Origin: Halonotius aquaticus
Lineage (GTDB): Archaea; Halobacteriota; Halobacteria; Halobacteriales; Haloferacaceae
Assembly: GCF_003605575.1 (NCBI RefSeq)
Contig: NZ_QKNY01000018.1
Span: 1 to 64,000 of the forward strand
Reading direction: 5' to 3'
DNA: 64,000 bases
The notes beneath the pieces were generated by a model. It made no database searches. It saw only the letters and a program-made list of their open reading frames with translations, and was not told the DNA's origin. The position numbers and the translations under genes are program-made. Below, in pieces: positions 7,000 through 64,000 of this stretch; position 1 is the stretch's first letter; each line of letters opens with the position of its first letter.

Positions 7000-7176
7000 T
7001 TACTCTGACTCCGCAAACGGGACAAACGAGCCGTTGATGTCCCATTCGTGGATGCAGTAGATGCTCCCGACGCTGTCGGTGGCGACCTGCCACGATTCGG
7101 TGTCAGCATCCCACTGTTCTGTCCGCCCACACCGTTCACAGACGCGCTCCGTGGGGTGGCGGAGACTAATCGACAT
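7000..7176 (-). CDS. HEWD family small zinc-ribbon-like protein
   Basis: A 58-residue haloarchaeal small protein named for its conserved His-Glu-Trp-Asp motif, seen here in IYCIHEWDINGSFVPF. A CxxC pair (RVCERCGRTEQW) near the N-terminus and the Cys of YCIHEW suggest metal binding. I chose the ATG at 7176; a GTG at 7197 in the same frame would add seven residues. The function of the family is unknown to me. Confidence 0.75.
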   Translation of the reverse strand: MSISLRHPTERVCERCGRTEQWDADTESWQVATDSVGSIYCIHEWDINGSFVPFAESE

Positions 7177-7197
7177 ACCTAACGGGGAGTCGTCCAC

Positions 7198-54989: not shown

Positions 54990-55760
54990 TCAGCCAACCA
55001 ACCCGGGGGTGAGGCCAGCGAGAACGTTGACCGCAAAGCCAAGGACGACCACGCCGGCAATGACCTGTGAGATCGCGTGGACACGCTCGCCCTGTGCCTT
55101 TGAGAGCCGGAACAGCGAGCCTGCCCCGCCGCCGATCAGTGCCATCGTCGCGATGATCGTCAGCGTGTAGGCGGCGACGATCCCGATCATGAGTGGTTGG
55201 CTCCCGTTGGGGATCGTCACCGAGATGAACGCGATCATCGAGACCGGCGGCGAGAGGGTAAACAGCGCGCCCACAGTACCGATCTTGAGGTATTCAAGCG
55301 TCGTATGATCGTGTGTGTGCGCCCCGTGGCCCTCGGTGGTTGGTCGAATCGATGCCGGTAGATGGAGATGATAGTGCGAGTGTGGCTCGCTCCCGTGCTC
55401 GTGGCGGTGGCGATGAACGAGCTTCCGCGTGCCGGTCACCCCGAGATACAGGCTTAGCCCCGCAAGGACGATCCCGACGAACAGTGTACCTACCTGTTCG
55501 AAGGCCGGCGGGAAGCTAGTCGTACCGAACAGTGCGTAGGCGGCTGCGATCCACACCACGACCAGCAGGGCATGGCCGGCGGCAAAACAGCCACCGACCA
55601 GCGCCGAGAGCTTCGGATCGCCTGCCTCGTGGGTGAGCGCGGTGATCCCAGCGACATGGTCAGGTTCGATCCCGTGGGTGATCCCTAACAGCCCGGCTGT
55701 GAGGAGATACCCGACACCCGCAGTCAACCCGAGCCCAAGGTCGGTCAGTGGCTCAACCAT
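54990..55760 (-). CDS. Nickel/cobalt permease-like protein (UreH/RcnA-type)
   Basis: A 256-residue membrane protein with six to seven helices. The metal signature GLLGITHGIEPDHVAGITAL holds the HxxxxDH core of Ni/Co transporters. A cytoplasmic or external His-rich loop (RHRHEHGSEPHSHYHLHLPA, AHTHDHTT) lies between helices. It is next to urease, so it most likely supplies nickel to it. Confidence 0.86.
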   Translation of the reverse strand: MVEPLTDLGLGLTAGVGYLLTAGLLGITHGIEPDHVAGITALTHEAGDPKLSALVGGCFAAGHALLVVVWIAAAYALFGTTSFPPAFEQVGTLFVGIVLAGLSLYLGVTGTRKLVHRHRHEHGSEPHSHYHLHLPASIRPTTEGHGAHTHDHTTLEYLKIGTVGALFTLSPPVSMIAFISVTIPNGSQPLMIGIVAAYTLTIIATMALIGGGAGSLFRLSKAQGERVHAISQVIAGVVVLGFAVNVLAGLTPGLVG

Positions 55761-56191
55761 CGTCCCTCACGTGCTGGCGCGACTCGCGCGGCCGCTGTCG
55801 ACAGGGATCGCTCCCGTCTTTCCGATAGTCGTTGAATTTGTGTCTCTACGTTCATATGACGCATTCAGTCGTCGGTTTTTCAGCGAGTGGCATAATCATT
55901 GACGATATCGCAATATCTGCTCGAACGTGCAGCATGATACTACTCTTGTGTACAGCCGATATCGCCCAGTGAGCACGAGAATCTACGCTGGTTGTGGCCA
56001 CTATTGAGCAAATAACAACTTAGCGAGCTATTTATTCTGCATTCCGTATTTTGATTCGATATTGGTTCAACCGATTTGGACAATTATTTACTATATAAGG
56101 ATATATTTAGTGTAATCATTCCCTCTAATCGTATATTGTCTGGTATTGATTAAGATAGAAGCGTTTATATACACTCTTTATCTCAACGGGA
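55761..56191. other. 431-base AT-rich regulatory region upstream of urt
   Basis: The gap between the nickel permease and the urea transporter. From about 56020 to 56190 it is very AT-rich with several TATA-like runs (for example TACTATATAAGG near 56090). An inverted repeat GATAT-CGCA-ATATC lies at 55904-55917. It probably binds nitrogen-responsive factors. No gene is evident apart from the short frame listed next. Confidence 0.45.
56164..56171 (+). promoter_or_regulatory. TATA box of the urt operon
   Basis: TTTATATA lies 28-21 bases before the ATG at 56192, so transcripts should begin at or next to that codon rather than at urtA. Confidence 0.6.
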
Positions 56192-56284
56192 ATGTCGACA
56201 ATGAGCAGACAAACGCTTCGGAATGCAGCTGACCAAGTTGTATATGCACAGAAAATTGTTGAATGCATGGAGGGACGTAAATGA
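56192..56284 (+). CDS. Leaderless 30-codon small protein coupled to urtA
   Basis: An ATG-started frame of 30 codons, beginning MSTMSRQTLRNAAD and ending VECMEGRK. Its TGA overlaps the urtA ATG (ATGA). The strong TATA box at leaderless distance belongs to this frame, not to urtA, which makes translational coupling to urtA likely. The GGAGGG sequence inside its last codons (ATGGAGGGACGT) could act as Shine-Dalgarno for urtA. The peptide is helical, mildly charged and matches nothing I know. Confidence 0.55.
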   Translation: MSTMSRQTLRNAADQVVYAQKIVECMEGRK

Positions 56285-57564
56285 GCGATAATCGTGTTTC
56301 TCGGCGATCAGTACTCGCAACCGGTGCAGCCGGTGTCGGCGCGGCACTGGCCGGGTGTTCTGGCGGCGGTGGCGGTGGCAGCTCGGAAAGTGACACGATC
56401 AAGATCGGCGTGCTTGAAGATCAGTCAGGTAACTTCTCACTGGTTGGGACGCCAAAGTGGCGTGCCAGCAAACTCGCCATCGAGGAGATCAACGACAACG
56501 GCGGGATCATGGGCAAACAGATCGAGCTGTTCGATCCCGATCCACAGTCAGATAACCAACGCTACCAACAGCTTACCGAACGGCTCATCCAACAGGAAGA
56601 GGTCGACGCGCTGTGGGCCGGCTACTCCTCGGCGACACGAGAGGCGATCCGACCGATCATCGACCGGGAAGATCAGCTGTACTTCTATACGACCCAATAC
56701 GAGGGCGGCGTCGCCGACAAGAACGTCTACTGTATGGGACCGACAGCCCGCCAACAGCTCGGCAGTGTCGTCCCCTACATGATCGAGAACTTCGGCACCG
56801 ACATCTACACCATCGCGGCCGACTACAACTTTGGCCAGCTGTCGGCCGACTGGGTAAAGGTCATCGCCCAGGAGAACGGCGCGTCGGTCAACAACGAGGA
56901 GTTCATCCCGCTATCGAACCAGAACTTCGGCTCGACAATCAGCAATATACAGGACGCCGATCCGGACTTCGTGATGGCGATCCTCGTCGGCAACAACCAC
57001 TCCTCGTTCTGGAACCAGCGAACCTCCGCGGGCCTCGATATCCCGATGGGCACCTCGACCGTGATGGCCCAGGGCTACCAGCACAAACGCCTCGAAGCGC
57101 CGGCGCTCAAGGACGTCTACGGCGGGTTCAACTACATGGAGGAGATCCCGACCGACCGCAACGAGGATTACGTCAGCCGGTACTACGACCGCTGGCCGGA
57201 CGCCGGCTACGCCAACGAGGAGTCCGTCAACAACTACTTCTCGATCTACATGTACAAGAATGCCGTCGAAGAAGCCGGCACGACCGATCAGGAAGCCGTC
57301 AAAGAGGTACTGAACAGCGGCATGGAGATCACCGGCGACAAATCGCCGGAAGGAGACATCTCCCTGCAGGGGCCGGTTCACCACATGACCCACAACATGC
57401 GGGTCATGAAGTGCGACGCCGACCACAACATCACCGTCGAAGACGAACGGATGATCCCCGAGCAGTTCCTCTCGGAGACGGTCGGCATCGATCTGTCGGG
57501 CAAGGACAGCGAACTGGAAAAACAGTTCACGCCGACCGAATACTACGACGCCGCAGGAGAGTAA
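56281..57564 (+). CDS. urtA: Urea ABC transporter substrate-binding lipoprotein UrtA
   Basis: A 427-residue binding protein with a Tat motif SRRSVLATG, lipobox LAGC and Gly/Ser linker. The mature part, starting IKIGVLEDQSGNFSLVGTPK, has the urea/short amide UrtA traits: GVADKNVYCMGPTARQQLGS, YIAADYNFGQLSADW-like (IAADYNFGQLSADWVK) and GGFNYMEEIPTDRNEDYVSR. It presents urea to UrtBC. Its neighbours are the other four Urt proteins and urease across the intergenic region. Confidence 0.9.
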   Translation: MSDNRVSRRSVLATGAAGVGAALAGCSGGGGGGSSESDTIKIGVLEDQSGNFSLVGTPKWRASKLAIEEINDNGGIMGKQIELFDPDPQSDNQRYQQLTERLIQQEEVDALWAGYSSATREAIRPIIDREDQLYFYTTQYEGGVADKNVYCMGPTARQQLGSVVPYMIENFGTDIYTIAADYNFGQLSADWVKVIAQENGASVNNEEFIPLSNQNFGSTISNIQDADPDFVMAILVGNNHSSFWNQRTSAGLDIPMGTSTVMAQGYQHKRLEAPALKDVYGGFNYMEEIPTDRNEDYVSRYYDRWPDAGYANEESVNNYFSIYMYKNAVEEAGTTDQEAVKEVLNSGMEITGDKSPEGDISLQGPVHHMTHNMRVMKCDADHNITVEDERMIPEQFLSETVGIDLSGKDSELEKQFTPTEYYDAAGE

Positions 57565-57567
57565 CTG

Positions 57568-58521
57568 ATGACATCGGGCTTCGGCGCAACTGGCATGCTC
57601 ACACCCCTCATCATCGGCGATGTGTTGGGGACACTCGATAGCGTTGGTGTTCCGATCCCACAGCTGCTGCAGATGGCCGATAACATCGCCTTCATCGCGC
57701 TGGCGGCGATCGGCCTGACGATCATCTTCGGGATGATGGGCGTGATCAATCTCGCTCACGGCGAATTCATCATGATGGGCGCCTACATCACAACGCTGTC
57801 GGTCAACGTGGCGTCGATCCCATTGCCGATTGCGATGCTTCTCGGCGCGCTCGGAACCGCCATTTTCGGAGCGATTGTCGAGCGCACCATCGTGCGACGG
57901 CTGTACGGCCGACTGCTGGATTCGATGATCGTCACCTTCGGGCTTGGGTTGATCCTCACACAGGGTACCAGGATCATCTTTGGCAACTCCCTACAGTCGA
58001 TCGGGACGCCATTCGGACAGGTTCCGGGGTACACCTACTCCGGCTACCGTGTCCTGTTGTTGTTTGCGGCGATCGGCGTGCTGGGGGCCGTCTATCTCGT
58101 GTTTACCCGCACCGAATTCGGTGTGCAAGCACGGGCGACGATTCAGGATCCGGAGACAGCGCAGGCGATGGGGGTCGACACCGATCGCATGTACACGATT
58201 ACCTTCGCAATCGGCTCCGGGCTAGCTGGCTTGACTGGCGCGCTGTACGCGCCCTCGGCGACGATCGTGCCGGGGATGGGACAGTCGTTCCTCGTTGAAT
58301 CCTTCGTCACTGTCGTCACCGGCGGGTCGTCGGTACTGCTCGGAACCGCCTTGGCTGGTGGGATCCTCGGGACGATCAACGCGATCTTCTCGAATCTGTA
58401 CGGGAATTTCATCGGCCAGATCGCGCTGCTCATCACGGCGATTATCGTTATCCGGCTGCTGCCGGATGGGCTGACCGGACTCGCAAACACAGTTCGTGAT
58501 AAGCTAGGTGAACGCCAATGA
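57568..58521 (+). CDS. urtB: Urea ABC transporter permease UrtB
   Basis: A 317-residue permease with the LivH/UrtB signature GLTIIFGMMGVINLAHGEFI and about eight helices, plus GVQARATIQDPETAQAMGVD as coupling loop. The start is ATG 57568, 3 bases after urtA; an inner ATG at 57595 is possible. It overlaps urtC by 4 bases. Confidence 0.9.
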   Translation: MTSGFGATGMLTPLIIGDVLGTLDSVGVPIPQLLQMADNIAFIALAAIGLTIIFGMMGVINLAHGEFIMMGAYITTLSVNVASIPLPIAMLLGALGTAIFGAIVERTIVRRLYGRLLDSMIVTFGLGLILTQGTRIIFGNSLQSIGTPFGQVPGYTYSGYRVLLLFAAIGVLGAVYLVFTRTEFGVQARATIQDPETAQAMGVDTDRMYTITFAIGSGLAGLTGALYAPSATIVPGMGQSFLVESFVTVVTGGSSVLLGTALAGGILGTINAIFSNLYGNFIGQIALLITAIIVIRLLPDGLTGLANTVRDKLGERQ

Positions 58522-59702
58522 CTGACGGACGCCTGCCGTCACGACTCGACGGGATCGCTCGCAAACTAAACGGCCCGAACACGCTCGGCAACTCGAAGGC
58601 GTTCTGGATCGCCTTCGCTGTCGGGATGGTTGGGATGATCGCTTATCCCCTCATCCGTGGCTCCTACGCAGCGGGACAGACCTCGCTGTTTCTGGTCTAC
58701 GGGCTGCTCGCGCTGTCGCTGTCGCTCATCTGGGGCTACACCGGCATTCTGAGCTTCGGGCAGGTCGCTTTCTTCGGGATCGCTGGCTACACCTACGCGA
58801 TTGTGAGCCTCAATCTCGGCGGCGCGTTCGGGCAAACAGTGGCCTTGCCGGTCGCCGTCGCGGTTGCGACGCTGTCGGCGTTTGTGCTCGGCTACTTCAT
58901 GTTCTACGGGGGCGTCAAGAACGTCTATGTGGCCATCCTCACGCTCGTCGTCACGCTTGTACTGGAGACGTTTATGGCCCAAACCGCTGGCGCGGAGTGG
59001 GCGATCGGAAGCGTCCAACTCGGCGGGTTTAACGGGATTCCCGGGATTCGGAACTTTGCCCTCGGCGTTGAGGGGGCCTCGATCAGCCTGTCAGGGTCGG
59101 GGTTCTACTGGTTTGTGTTGGCCCTGTTGCTCGTCGCCTACCTCGGTGCCCGAATGCTTGTTAACAGCCGCTTTGGCTACACGCTGGTAGCGATCCGGGA
59201 AGACGCCGAGCGAACAACAATGCTCGGCTACAACGTGAAGCGAGTGAAGCTAGCCGTCTTCACGCTGTCCGGCGCACTCGCCGGGCTTAGCGGCGTGCTG
59301 TATGCGACGTGGGGCAACTACATGGATCCGAGCGTGTTCACCATCGTCTTCGCCACCATCCCCATCGTCTGGGTCACCCTTGGCGGCCGTGAATCGCTGC
59401 TCGGGGCGATCGTCGGTACGGTCATCATCGAACGACTCCGGCTGTGGTTTTCGGTCAACGCCTCGGAGTTCGCGATCGTCTTCGTCGGCGTGATCCTCAT
59501 GACAACGGTGCTGCTGGTTCCGCGAGGGATCCTCCCGGGGATCAGAGACGGCTACGTGTTCTTCAGCGAACACGGCATCCGCGAGGGGATCGAACGCGGT
59601 CGGCTGACGATCCAAACACGGCTCCAAGCGCGATTGGCGTCACTTGGAGTTGGAGGAACAGAAACAGAGACCCCACCCAGTTCGGAGGCGGTTCGTGAAT
59701 GA
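58518..59702 (+). CDS. urtC: Urea ABC transporter permease UrtC
   Basis: A 394-residue permease of the LivM/UrtC type: LIWGYTGILSFGQVAFFGIA, LVAIREDAERTTMLGYNVKR and VWVTLGGRESLLGAIVGTVI. About ten helices are seen, with a Thr/Glu-rich cytoplasmic C-terminus. It overlaps both neighbours. Confidence 0.9.
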   Translation: MTDGRLPSRLDGIARKLNGPNTLGNSKAFWIAFAVGMVGMIAYPLIRGSYAAGQTSLFLVYGLLALSLSLIWGYTGILSFGQVAFFGIAGYTYAIVSLNLGGAFGQTVALPVAVAVATLSAFVLGYFMFYGGVKNVYVAILTLVVTLVLETFMAQTAGAEWAIGSVQLGGFNGIPGIRNFALGVEGASISLSGSGFYWFVLALLLVAYLGARMLVNSRFGYTLVAIREDAERTTMLGYNVKRVKLAVFTLSGALAGLSGVLYATWGNYMDPSVFTIVFATIPIVWVTLGGRESLLGAIVGTVIIERLRLWFSVNASEFAIVFVGVILMTTVLLVPRGILPGIRDGYVFFSEHGIREGIERGRLTIQTRLQARLASLGVGGTETETPPSSEAVRE

Positions 59703-60472
59703 GCACCCCACAAGATCCAAACGTCAGAGAGCAGCCAGCGGTCGCCGCTACCGGAAGCAGCCGCGAGGCGATCCTCTCGACGAACGGGCTCAAGAAAAAG
59801 TTCGGCGGCCTCACCGCCGTCGACAGCGTTGATTTCACCGTTGACGAGGGTGAGATCCGCTGTCTGATCGGCCCCAATGGGGCTGGCAAATCCACGCTGC
59901 TTGAACTGATTACGGGACAGCTTTCGCCCACGGATGGCGACATCTACTTCGATGGTAACGATCTGACCGATATGGAACCCCACCGGCGGATGGACGCCGG
60001 CATCAGCATCAAGTTCCAATCGCCACACATCTACGAGAGCCTCACCGTCGAGCAGAACCTTCGGGTGCCGCTGCAGCGAACCGACCGCGATATCGAGGCC
60101 GTGTTGGAGCGAACACTTGCTCGGATCGCGCTGGCCGAGAAGGCCGACGAGCCGGCCAGTGATCTCTCCCACGGCGAGAAACAGCGGCTTGAGATCGGGA
60201 TGGCGGTGACGCTTGATCCAGCACTCATGCTGTTGGATGAGCCCGTTGCAGGGATGTCAGTCGACGAAACGGCTGATATCGCCGAGCTGATCCAGTCGCT
60301 GCACGACGACGGGATGACGTTCCTCGTCGTCGAACACGACATGGAGTTTGTTCGGAAGATATCCGAGCAGGTGACGGTGTTGAACCAAGGCTCGGTTCTC
60401 ACACAGGGCCCGATTGAAGCCATCGAGAACAACGAAGAGGTTCGCCGAATCTACCTGGGTGAAAACGCATGA
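59699..60472 (+). CDS. urtD: Urea ABC transporter ATP-binding protein UrtD
   Basis: A 257-residue ATPase: Walker A GPNGAGKSTLLELITG, signature DLSHGEKQRLEIGMAVTL, Walker B ALMLLDEPVAGMSVDETADI. The SHGEKQRLEIGM form is typical of UrtD rather than LivG. Confidence 0.92.
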   Translation: MSTPQDPNVREQPAVAATGSSREAILSTNGLKKKFGGLTAVDSVDFTVDEGEIRCLIGPNGAGKSTLLELITGQLSPTDGDIYFDGNDLTDMEPHRRMDAGISIKFQSPHIYESLTVEQNLRVPLQRTDRDIEAVLERTLARIALAEKADEPASDLSHGEKQRLEIGMAVTLDPALMLLDEPVAGMSVDETADIAELIQSLHDDGMTFLVVEHDMEFVRKISEQVTVLNQGSVLTQGPIEAIENNEEVRRIYLGENA

Positions 60473-61167
60473 GCCTTGAAATCTCGAAGCTCAACGCCGG
60501 CTACGATGGAACACCGATCCTCAGAGACGTTTCTTTCAGCGTCGACGACGGCGAGATCGTCGGGATCGTTGGCCGTAATGGCGTTGGGAAAACAACGCTG
60601 TTGAAGTCGATTATGGGGCTGCTTGAGCCGGAAACTGGACGCATCCAGTACAACGGCGAGGAGCTAACGGGTCGTTCACCCGACGAACACGCAAAGCGCA
60701 GTATCGGCTACGTCCCACAGGGGCGTGACGTGTTCCCAGATCTCTCCGTTGAGGAGAATCTGCTGGTTGGTGAATCGGTCGGCGACGATGACGAGACACG
60801 CTACGAGCAGGTCTACGACTACTTCCCGATCCTCGAAGAGCGCGCCGGGCAGGACGCTGGGACGATGTCGGGCGGCCAACAGCAGATGCTCGCTATCGCC
60901 CGCGCGCTCGTCGGCGATCCCGACCTGCTGTTGGTTGACGAACCCTCGGAGGGTGTCCAGCCCTCGATCGTCCAGTCGATCACCGAGGATCTCAAGCAGA
61001 TCAACGACGAGTTCGGCACGACGATCCTCTTTGTCGAGCAGAACCTGTCGGTGATTCAGGGCCTCGCCGAGCGGTGTTACGCCATCGATCACGGCACCAT
61101 CGTCGACGAGATCACCGGCGACGCCGTCTCCGAGCGCGACCAACTCGAGGAGTACCTCGTCGTCTAA
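60469..61167 (+). CDS. urtE: Urea ABC transporter ATP-binding protein UrtE
   Basis: A 232-residue ATPase: Walker A GRNGVGKTTLLKSIMG, GYVPQGRDVFPDLSVEENLL, signature MSGGQQQMLAIARALV and Walker B LLLVDEPSEGVQPSIVQSI, the last being characteristic of UrtE. It ends the operon; a T-run follows. Confidence 0.92.
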   Translation: MSLEISKLNAGYDGTPILRDVSFSVDDGEIVGIVGRNGVGKTTLLKSIMGLLEPETGRIQYNGEELTGRSPDEHAKRSIGYVPQGRDVFPDLSVEENLLVGESVGDDDETRYEQVYDYFPILEERAGQDAGTMSGGQQQMLAIARALVGDPDLLLVDEPSEGVQPSIVQSITEDLKQINDEFGTTILFVEQNLSVIQGLAERCYAIDHGTIVDEITGDAVSERDQLEEYLVV

Positions 61168-61183
61168 GCGATCGCTGCCACGG

Positions 61184-61190
61184 TTTTTTT
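61184..61190 (+). terminator. T-tract terminator after urtE
   Basis: Seven consecutive Ts 17 bases after the urtE stop, a typical archaeal transcription stop. It overlaps the end of the convergent nosY-like gene. Confidence 0.55.
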
Positions 61191-62010
61191 ACCCGATCCG
61201 CCACCGGAGGAGCCCGGCCGCCGCCCCGAGTGACGCAACCGTCCACAACACCAAGCCGATCATGCTGATCAGCGGCGACGCGTAGCCGGACTCACCGGCC
61301 GACAACACGCCGACAACAGTCTCGAAGACAAGCCCCCGATACGCACTGTTCGGGACGAATCCAAGCGCCAGCCGCAGCGTCGCCTCGTTGAACACCCCAT
61401 CAAGGACACCAAGCAGGATCGCCGCCTCACCGCCGACTACAACGACAAGGACGGCCCCGATCGCAGCAACGATCGCCGTTCGCGCGCTGGTCACAGCGAT
61501 CGAGGCCACGAGCACGACAGCCACAAGCGCGTTGCCAAACAACAGCGTCACCACCAGAAACCGGCCAAAGAGGATCGGCGAGTCGACGCCGGAGTGTGTC
61601 GCAAACACGCCGGTATCCGGGGCGGCGACGGCAGCGACGACGAGCCCAACAACAAGGAGAGCAACACCAACAATCGCTGAGAGGACAGCCGCGCGACCAA
61701 GATACACCGCACCAACGTAGGCAGACGGCGAGACGGCGTAGGTATCGAGCATCGCCACCTCACCGCGGTCAAGATCTGAGGGGACTGCCCGGTAGCCGAT
61801 GGCGACTGCGACGATCGGAACGAGCACCTCCAGTGGCAACAGCAGATCAACAACAGTCGGGATGTAGCCCGTGGCGGCCCCACCGCCGCCGAACGTTAGC
61901 CCGAGCAGAATTCCGCCGACTGCAAGGCCAAGCAGATAGTAGCTCCGTGTTCGGGCAGCCGTGCGGAGTTCACGACGGATCAGCGTAGACATGATCGTCA
62001 GCGAACTCAT
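61189..62010 (-). CDS. nosY: NosY-like ABC transporter permease
   Basis: A 273-residue membrane protein with six helices: LIRRELRTAARTRSYYLLGL at the start, LLLPLEVLVPIVAVAIGYRA, GEVAMLDTYAVSPSAYVGAV and LVVTLLFGNALVAVVLVASI. The RGEVAMLDTYAVSPSAYVG stretch resembles NosY of nitrous oxide reductase assembly. It is coupled to nosF by a 4-base overlap. Confidence 0.78.
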   Translation of the reverse strand: MSSLTIMSTLIRRELRTAARTRSYYLLGLAVGGILLGLTFGGGGAATGYIPTVVDLLLPLEVLVPIVAVAIGYRAVPSDLDRGEVAMLDTYAVSPSAYVGAVYLGRAAVLSAIVGVALLVVGLVVAAVAAPDTGVFATHSGVDSPILFGRFLVVTLLFGNALVAVVLVASIAVTSARTAIVAAIGAVLVVVVGGEAAILLGVLDGVFNEATLRLALGFVPNSAYRGLVFETVVGVLSAGESGYASPLISMIGLVLWTVASLGAAAGLLRWRIG

Positions 62011-62864
62011 GACTGTCCTCCCGTGTCAGCAGTCGCATCGGACGCCACCGACTCTCGCTCCGTGGGCCCGTCGTCGCCGCGACGAGCAGCCCCGTCACTC
62101 GTCGCCGGATCGTCACCAGCCGTCGGGTCGATGACGGTGTCGTATACGTCCCAGAGATCAGCGGCGTCGTACCGCTCGATCAAATCAGTGGGTGAGCCGG
62201 CCGCGGCAACACCGCCTGATTCGAGAATAACGACGTGATCGGCGTACGTTTCGACCAACGACAGCGTATGGGAGGCGACGACGACCGCCATCCCGTCGGC
62301 GGCTCGCCCAGCAAGACTCTCGAAGACCCGCCGGGCCATGCTTGGGTCGAGCCCGCTGGCGGGCTCATCACAGCAGACGACCGGTGGGTCGCCAAGGACA
62401 GCCTGTGCGACCGCCAGCAGTCGACGCATCCCGCCCGAGAGTGCGGACACCCGCCGGTTTCGAGCCTCGGAGAGGTTGACCTCACCTAAGAGGCGCTCCG
62501 TGTCGACGGCGGCGTCGACCAGCGAGGCGTAGAAGTCGACGGTTTCGTTGACGGTGAACTGCGGGCGAAACGCCGGCTCCTGTGGCAGATACCCCATCGG
62601 TCGATCCACGTTTGGGCCGGTGTAAGTCACCGTGCCGGCCGTGGGGTCGACATGGCCCAACAGTGTCTTCAACAACGTTGTTTTGCCGATCCCGTTGGGG
62701 CCGATCACAGCGGTCATCGCGCCGGAGGCGATATCGAGGTCGACACCCTCGAAGATGGGTCGGCCCCCGTATTCTTTCGTCAGTCCTGTGGTCGTGACGA
62801 CCGAGGTGTCTCCATCGTTGTCGGTCGGTTCACCCCTGGATGTGGCTTCGTCAGCGTCGGTCAT
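62007..62864 (-). CDS. nosF: NosF-like ABC transporter ATP-binding protein
   Basis: A 285-residue ATPase: Walker A GPNGIGKTTLLKTLLG, signature ALSGGMRRLLAVAQAVLG and Walker B VVCCDEPASGLDPSMARRV, with GYLPQEPAFRPQFTVNETVD as Q-loop region. Acidic, Thr/Ser-rich extensions lie at both ends. It sits between nosD- and nosY-like genes, and probably feeds copper/sulfur assembly of NosZ in the N2O reductase pathway. Confidence 0.82.
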   Translation of the reverse strand: MTDADEATSRGEPTDNDGDTSVVTTTGLTKEYGGRPIFEGVDLDIASGAMTAVIGPNGIGKTTLLKTLLGHVDPTAGTVTYTGPNVDRPMGYLPQEPAFRPQFTVNETVDFYASLVDAAVDTERLLGEVNLSEARNRRVSALSGGMRRLLAVAQAVLGDPPVVCCDEPASGLDPSMARRVFESLAGRAADGMAVVVASHTLSLVETYADHVVILESGGVAAAGSPTDLIERYDAADLWDVYDTVIDPTAGDDPATSDGAARRGDDGPTERESVASDATADTGGQS

Positions 62865-62941
62865 GAGAGATGAGAGTGTGCGTGCTGCGCGCGATCTTCG
62901 TATGTGCCGTTGCCATCGCTACTGTGGAGTGGTATCATTGG

Positions 62942-64000
62942 TTAGGGTGGTGATGCTGTCTCAGAGACGCCAGCAAGCCCGTCGGTGTGGAGGGCCGCTG
63001 TTGTCTCAACGAGCTCAGGATTCTGTGGGGTCTCGACTGGGTCAGGATCGAGGATGCTCCCGGATCGAAGCCCCGGCGAGGCACCGGTGAGTTCGCGGAG
63101 GCCCTGGTACACCGGCGAGGCGGCGACCGTCCGGCGGGCCATCGAGCGGTGTCGTTGGCCATCGACCGGATCGGTCGGCATGTACGCCCGGTCGGCCGTC
63201 CGACCGCTTGGCGTCGTCAACGCATCCTCCCAGTAGTTGCCACGCCAGACACGCAGCGGGCCGGCACTCGCGCCGGCGTGGCGATCGTTGTCGACGAAAT
63301 CGTTAGCGGTCACCTCGCTGGTCGCCACGACCGACCCGGTTCGCATTCCCTGATTGTTGTGTCGGACGACGTTGTGCTCGTACAGCGAGTTGATCGCGGT
63401 CGTCGTGATCCCGATCCGGCTGTCGGTGACGCCGTTGTGAGCGATATAAGAGTTCGAGCCGCTGGTCGAGATCCCGGTCGCCGTGTTGCGAACGAGGTTG
63501 CCGACGATGGCGTTGCGGGTCGGATCGGTCATCACCGTGATCCCACCGTACTCCTGGCCGGCCATGCGGTTGTCGGCGACCAACACCGTCGAAGAGTACA
63601 TCAGGTGGACGCCGTAGCGGTTCTCCCGAAAGGTGTTGTTGCGGATGATTGTCCCATCAGATCGGTGGAGATAGACGCCGTCACGCCCATCGGTGACCGC
63701 CGAGTCCTGTATCACAGTCGGGGAGTACATGGCGATAACGCCCATGAAGCCATCGTGCCAATCCTCGGGGCCGGCCACCGAGAGATTCGTCACGACCCCA
63801 CCGGGGCTCCGTCGCAACAACACGCCGTTGGCGGGTGTGTGTGGGACGGTCACGTCGGAGATGAGTGTCTCATTTGCGCCGGTCGCTTTGATCGCCGCAT
63901 CGCCGTGGCCGTAGCCGAGTTCGATATTCGCATCCCAAGCGTCGCCGGCGACAGCGTCGGGATTGCGGGTTTGGTTGCCAACACCGGTGATCGTGAGCCC
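62942..64000 (-). CDS. nosD: NosD-like parallel beta-helix protein (5' end outside window)
   Basis: At least 352 residues of a right-handed beta-helix protein of the NosD/CASH type, with repeated coils such as GTIIRNNTFRENRYGVHLMY, GGITVMTDPTRNAIVGNLV and TTTAINSLYEHNVVRHNNQG. The frame is open to the window edge, where it reads GLTITGVGNQTRNPDAVAG, so the N-terminus and export signal lie outside. It precedes nosF and nosY as in nitrous oxide reductase maturation clusters; nosZ itself is not in the window. Confidence 0.88.
   Translation of the reverse strand, partial: GLTITGVGNQTRNPDAVAGDAWDANIELGYGHGDAAIKATGANETLISDVTVPHTPANGVLLRRSPGGVVTNLSVAGPEDWHDGFMGVIAMYSPTVIQDSAVTDGRDGVYLHRSDGTIIRNNTFRENRYGVHLMYSSTVLVADNRMAGQEYGGITVMTDPTRNAIVGNLVRNTATGISTSGSNSYIAHNGVTDSRIGITTTAINSLYEHNVVRHNNQGMRTGSVVATSEVTANDFVDNDRHAGASAGPLRVWRGNYWEDALTTPSGRTADRAYMPTDPVDGQRHRSMARRTVAASPVYQGLRELTGASPGLRSGSILDPDPVETPQNPELVETTAALHTDGLAGVSETASPP

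Follow-up and report, generated by a model that had tools for sequence, protein, structure and literature searches.

A short upstream frame overlapping the haloarchaeal urtA start, conserved across the class in frame and position, probably delivers ribosomes to the urea transporter genes

The urtA gene in the stretch of DNA analysed here (the window, 64,000 nucleotides from the contig NZ_QKNY01000018.1 of Halonotius aquaticus) is preceded by a small open frame that ends on the urtA start codon, and this frame can be traced through 29 genera of haloarchaea, with the frame and its overlap kept and the peptide drifting, a sign that ribosome delivery is in itself a selected function. We consider it probable that the frame, 27 codons in its conserved form, is a cis-acting element that loads ribosomes and delivers them to urtA by termination-reinitiation. 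At the level of sequence, the comparisons establish the architecture, its class-wide conservation, the coding-like composition of the frame and the absence of amino acid conservation. The UrtA protein of the window has 96% identity to UrtA of genome G057 and 94% to that of G058, and the source is a Halonotius-like haloarchaeon. The features of the locus are as follows.

56092-56104, plus strand: TATATAAGGATAT, upstream block found in the majority of the 16 relatives whose frame has 27 codons (alignment); candidate operator or second promoter
56131-56141, plus strand: GTATATTGTCT, second upstream block common to the 27-codon group (alignment)
56164-56171, plus strand: TTTATATA, TATA box of the predicted promoter (sequence reading and distance counts)
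56192-56194, plus strand: first in-frame ATG, at leaderless distance, retained in few relatives (sequence, relatives)
56201-56284, plus strand: conserved upstream frame, 27 codons and TGA, 30 codons if counted from 56192 (comparison of relatives)
56207-56215, plus strand: AGACAAACG, match to GGACRAACG, an element lying 38-44 bases 3' of the TATA box independently of reading frame (motif search)
56237-56250, plus strand: GTTGTATATGCACA, inner block more conserved than its flanks in the 27-codon group (identity by segment)
56269-56274, plus strand: GGAGGG, Shine-Dalgarno (SD)-like, within the final codons of the upstream frame (sequence)
56281-56284, plus strand: ATGA, overlap of the urtA start and the upstream-frame stop (sequence)
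56281-57564, plus strand: urtA, archaeal urea-binding Tat lipoprotein (TIGR03669; NCBIfam)
57568-58521, plus strand: urtB (TIGR03622; NCBIfam), 3-base gap from urtA
58518-59702, plus strand: urtC (TIGR03727; NCBIfam), overlapping urtB by ATGA
59699-60472, plus strand: urtD-like ATPase (best model UrtD, below its cut-off), overlapping urtC by ATGA
60469-61167, plus strand: urtE-like ATPase (best model UrtE, below its cut-off), overlapping urtD by ATGA

The assignment of urtA is clear of the TIGR03669 cut-off (650.3 bits against 494.8). The signals around the small frame that an earlier, sequence-only reading had pointed out are all in place: the centre of TTTATATA lies about 24 bases 5' of the ATG at 56192, the stop codon TGA at 56282-56284 overlaps the urtA ATG at 56281 as ATGA, and GGAGGG stands in the last codons of the frame, about 7 bases 5' of the urtA start. 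That reading also saw no box at leaderless distance from urtA, and we found a weak TATATG only, 40 bases before the gene; across the class, 48 of 80 loci have a TATA-like box 5' of the small frame at a distance of 26-41 bases (13.1 expected from mononucleotide shuffles), versus 6 of 80 with one before urtA. The blocks TATATAAGGATAT and GTATATTGTCT are AT-rich, lie 5' of the promoter, are conserved in the 27-codon group and are possible regulator sites.

The description of the frame as leaderless and 30 codons long stood in part. A frame of 30 codons does run from 56192, but the start that relatives conserve is the second ATG, at 56201, which gives 27 codons. Exactly this length, with no insertion or deletion between start and urtA ATG, is found in 16 loci of Halonotius, Halohasta, Haloquadratum and Halorubrum types and of one genome from another family (G363), though their peptides differ widely; outside the group the frame has 26-35 codons, mostly 30-33. 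G057, G144 and G363 likewise have an ATG in frame at the position corresponding to 56192, and in G058 a nearby ATG in another frame opens three codons that run by ATGA into the conserved start. Counted from its first base, the TATA box is 28 bases from the ATG at 56192 and 37 bases from that at 56201, so that the transcript would be leaderless for the former or, for the latter, carry about 9 bases of leader, and the strictly leaderless reading is supported for 56192 only. In this contig, TATA boxes ahead of long frames cluster weakly at 27-30 bases from the ATG (six boxes there), and in 51 loci the conserved ATG lies 31-42 bases from the box.

The extent of the layout depends on where the search begins. 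A search with the 30-codon peptide matched 8 of the 170 genomes of the family (E ≤ 1), six of the matches being the window itself or lying directly 5' of a urtA gene that the urtA search had found; the seventh (G157, locus L003) is an intact 27-codon frame with ATGA ahead of an apparently broken urtA start, and the eighth (G144, L008) bears no relation to urt. Starting from urtA, in the 170 family genomes and 391 genomes of the class, revealed a much wider distribution. The resulting 99 loci comprise one urtA match per genome and three paralogues, and 96 loci remain at one per genome. Not included were L033, whose match in G077 starts within the gene, L037 of G057, G362, and second copies from G231, G271, G385, G390 and G416. 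In 69 of the 96 loci, which cover 32 genera in all, a frame of 20 codons or more starts with ATG and overlaps urtA by 1 or 4 bases; the addition of GTG starts brings the count to 74 (five more), and that of GTG starts and 8-base overlaps to 83. Under this wider rule 29 of the 32 genera have at least one such locus, and the genus count is the safer figure, since many of the 96 loci are closely related. Conservation among close relatives, on which the sequence-only reading had staked its case beforehand, was thus checked, and the frame survived.

Dinucleotide shuffles of the upstream DNA predict a frame in 7.5 of 99 loci, against 68 of 99 observed (the 68/99 and 69/96 counts rest on slightly different search spans). 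None of 29 genes for dipeptide-binding lipoproteins (SBP_bac_5) of the same class has such an upstream frame, and neither does any of 7 Tat lipoprotein genes in 400 kb of the same contig, the 7 being those judged genuine by the analyst among 35 frames caught by the pattern, most of them spurious, of which 2 had a frame by rule. When 424 kb of the contig was scanned for a TATA box, a short frame and an NTGA overlap before a real gene, urtA was the sole case; one further match stands before the 80-codon remnant of an open frame and is probably spurious. Counts given on smaller sets (80 loci for TATA boxes, 76 for GGACRAACG, 51 for the comparison of distances) refer to subsets that each require further features. 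Four annotated plasmid records from haloarchaea (Haloarcula marismortui, H. hispanica, Halarchaeum sp. and Halomontanus rarus) contain the frame in their DNA without annotation and agree with us on the urtA start; the missing annotation carries little weight, as the PLSDB tables are incomplete. The more distant urtA-like gene of Natronomonas pharaonis has no upstream frame.

The ribosome-delivery reading predicts the following course of events: (i) transcription would begin about 25-30 bases past the TATA box at 56164; (ii) a ribosome would initiate at the ATG 56192 on a leaderless transcript or, following the majority of relatives, at 56201 after a few bases of leader; (iii) after translation of 27-30 codons, it would terminate at the TGA within ATGA and reinitiate at urtA, aided in about half of the loci by the SD sequence in the last codons; and (iv) urtB, 3 bases on, and then urtC, urtD and urtE would follow by their ATGA overlaps. 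With such a short gap and further overlaps, a single point of ribosome entry may be enough for all of the operon. We infer the transcription start, the translation of the frame, the reinitiation and the setting of the operon's level at this entry point. In Haloferax, reporter constructs, in the part of the study drawn on here, found overlapping or close gene pairs to be strictly coupled in 9 of 9 cases, the translation of the second gene depending on the first (PMC6728339). The earlier proposal that urtA is translated by coupling to the short upstream frame is well supported by comparison, with frame, overlap and promoter placement recurring in 29 of 32 genera. Removal of the SD sequence is reported to alter reinitiation to varying degrees (PMC6728339), and SD sequences in Haloferax 5'-UTRs are described, in the text cited, as not used for de novo initiation (PMC3986360), so an SD sequence some 80 bases into the transcript is readily understood as a signal for reinitiation. 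In 34 of 83 frame-bearing loci a GGAGG lies no more than 18 bases from the urtA start, versus 1 of 29 control genes, and the 16S rRNA of Haloarcula marismortui ends in CCTCCT; on the other hand, an SD core (GGAG or GAGG) is found in 45 of the 83 only. Against the coupling reading it counts that the wider rule does not hold for 13 of the 96 loci and that a recognisable TATA box accompanies no more than the 48 loci mentioned, and urtA could have another transcription start that escaped us.

The closest parallel known to us from the cited literature lies in mycobacteria, in which unannotated leaderless small frames are coupled to the next gene by an RTGA overlap and ribosome delivery has been proposed, with one example keeping the linkage and not the peptide (Shell et al. 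2015, PMC4633059). The two systems share a small unannotated frame, which at urtA would lie at or near the predicted transcript start, the RTGA overlap and an unconserved peptide: the window has the RTGA-type overlap, 74 of the 96 loci have a 1- or 4-base overlap with an ATG or GTG start, and before urtA, too, the linkage is kept more than the peptide. The urtA case differs in that it is archaeal, concerns one gene through 32 genera rather than two species, usually has its conserved start behind a short leader, includes a promoter-anchored element and, in some genomes, a relay of two frames, and is described here at the level of sequence. By analogy, the frame may work like the mycobacterial coupled small frames, in archaea and class-wide. 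The termination-reinitiation pairs of Haloferax (Huber et al. 2019, PMC6728339) share the ATGA overlap and the internal SD sequence, and the later urt genes overlap likewise; a 4- or 1-base overlap, often with an internal SD sequence, is what we find at urtA. The upstream partner in those pairs, as reported in the part cited, is a normal gene, whereas the frame before urtA is in most cases 27-34 codons long and has no conserved product. Differential RNA-seq of Haloferax volcanii turned up 16 short frames within leaders 150-250 bases long (Babski et al. 2016, PMC4983044), similar in having 15-31 codons and in preceding larger genes, several of them transporter genes; the portion of that report consulted gives no overlap or conservation for the 16 and names no urt gene, and the Haloferax-like urtA loci in our set lack the frame.

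In the literature covered, archaeal upstream frames appear mostly as isolated entries of transcript maps. The urtA loci add a natural set of variants, with 26-35 codons, 4- or 8-base overlaps, ATG or GTG starts and one or two relay frames, and they raise the question of why reinitiation would be used where a leaderless urtA start, as in the Haloferax-like genomes, would seem simpler.

Regulation through the upstream frame is plausible. In its explicit form, nitrogen status or urea would alter initiation, elongation or termination on the frame and hence urt expression; this is compatible with ribosome delivery, and we regard it as possible though rather doubtful. Within the scan of 424 kb the layout is confined to urtA, a leader that is translated stands out beside the mostly leaderless genes that the cited part of the dRNA-seq study describes for Haloferax (PMC4983044), and something may act at the frame start, over which GGACRAACG, allowing one mismatch, lies in 34 of 76 loci against 0.5 expected. 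The sequences argue against a gate of the classical kind, the amino acid attenuators, which have in common with urtA a short translated leader ahead of an operon (also PMC4633059). An RNA switch or attenuator was rejected: RNAalifold predicted no conserved pairs in the 16-sequence alignment, the leader of the window folds no better than its shuffles (z = +0.5) and no Rfam family matches it. No run of codons for one regulatory amino acid is dominant in 56 non-redundant frames, the enrichment of Asn, Ser, Asp and Glu in them being general, and amino acid conservation is likewise missing. Without RNA structure or an amino acid-specific signature, classical attenuation is unlikely.

The element GGACRAACG also bears on a second alternative, in which the region is mainly an operator or promoter over the transcription start and the open frame a by-product. 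Relative to the frame start it is offset by 2 in part of the loci and by 6 or 9 in other loci, so its reading frame is not constant, and its spacing from the TATA box (38-44 bases, mean 42.2, sd 1.8) varies less than that of the ATG (sd 3.7; 51 loci); GGACRAACG is therefore a promoter-anchored DNA or RNA signal rather than a peptide motif, and our guess is that it may be the binding site of a regulator. For the same reason a candidate N-terminal peptide motif, M-x-G-Q/R-T, was rejected, the DNA motif being found in another reading frame as well. The further conserved blocks TATATAAGGATAT and GTATATTGTCT upstream also favor a DNA element. As the principal explanation it is nonetheless quite unlikely, as it leaves unexplained that frames of differing length share an end on the urtA start, that their composition is coding-like and that a two-frame relay exists; a DNA element and a ribosome-delivery frame can both be true. 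Two other roles for GGACRAACG were tried and dropped. As an operator common to other genes of the genome, a longer pattern matched this site and one site with 3 mismatches only, and a loose pattern matched 40 sites versus 23 for the reversed control, with a comparable promoter and upstream frame in 0 of 7 regions inspected. As a sequence pairing with 16S rRNA, it has no complement in that of Haloarcula marismortui; a search for the window genome's own 16S found none.

That the product of the frame might itself be functional, for example as a regulator of the transporter, is highly improbable. The frame is conserved, the peptide of the closest relative is 80% identical, and the acidic bias resembles that of haloarchaeal proteins. 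However, purifying selection on amino acids, looked for in both length classes, was not detected: substitutions in independent pairs are spread over codon positions 1, 2 and 3 as 60:60:67 in the 27-codon group and 44:40:46 in the 33-codon group of Haloarcula, and of the changed codons 18 are synonymous and 102 non-synonymous (n = 120) in the former and 14 and 69 (n = 83) in the latter, no excess over the roughly 20% synonymous share expected for random single changes. With substitutions equal over the codon positions and no synonymous excess, the amino acid sequence is without detectable selection; the peptides are, moreover, unrelated between genera and have no Pfam match, which speaks against a conserved small protein family. 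The suggestion that the peptide acts on the transporter accordingly finds no support in these changed codons (120 and 83).

The frame is, on the other hand, coding-like in its composition. After removal of the first six and last eight codons from the 56 non-redundant frames, composition by codon position gave a chi2 of 119, as against a mean of 23 and a maximum of 48 in 300 stop-free shuffles, with purines favored at codon position 1, Asp, Glu, Asn and Ser enriched, and Arg, Pro, Leu and Trp depleted; this could partly mirror further DNA signals. Judged by these comparisons, the small frame is real and selected, not neutral DNA, and a frame that is kept while its sequence is free is the pattern expected of an element that needs only to be translated through. 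A chance frame in an AT-rich leader, for which nothing speaks beyond the general ease of finding short frames, is refuted by the class-wide conservation, the shuffles, the SBP_bac_5 control and the contig scan, and its probability is practically nil.

A variation of the layout accounts for part of the exceptions. In five genomes of one genus, g73 (G286, G292, G295, G359 and G399), and in G261 (loci L137, L141, L144, L151 and L155, and L149), a promoter-near frame of 29 codons, beginning MIGQS, leads by ATGA into a frame of 17 codons, which leads by GTGA into the GTG start of urtA. A near-relay is present in G207 and G224, in which the first frame, of 26 codons, stops four bases short of the 17-codon frame or just within the longer form of the latter. 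Five of these eight relay or near-relay genomes fall among the 13 loci without the simple layout; the other exceptions are three Haloferax-like genomes, in which urtA is started directly, G369, which has no frame, and four genomes of family f9 with a shorter frame and another overlap. In the literature searched, mainly open-access, we found no description of a class-wide archaeal case, of a two-frame relay or of an upstream frame of haloarchaeal urtA. Taken to its furthest extent, the layout would be a class-wide archaeal translational entry gate, in which one start on a sequence-free frame feeds urtABCDE by a chain of reinitiations, GGACRAACG lets nitrogen status open or close the gate, and one genus, together with a few further family f4 genomes, has an extra 17-codon relay; as a whole, this picture is speculative and, in our estimate, unlikely.

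Several minor observations concern individual loci and the neighbors of urt. In L003 (G157:C170, about 7117-7197, minus strand), a 27-codon frame with promoter and ATGA precedes a urtA start with an altered signal peptide, after which the gene's frame apparently soon breaks; it is possibly a decayed urtA that has kept its leader. A second urtA-like gene of the Halonotius roseus-like genome (L034, G058:C2:505555-506817) has a 26-codon frame of unrelated sequence, with a TATA box 30 bases before the frame and an 8-base overlap. In the window, the gene at 54990-55760 (minus strand), between the urease genes and urt, resembles the Pfam families NicO (nickel transport) and LysE weakly, below their cut-offs, and may serve nickel supply to urease. 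On the other side of urt, 61189-63853 (minus strand) holds a frame with no NCBIfam match, an ABC ATPase and a NosD-like gene (NosD match below cut-off), which suggests that these genes are part of a nitrous oxide reductase maturation cluster.
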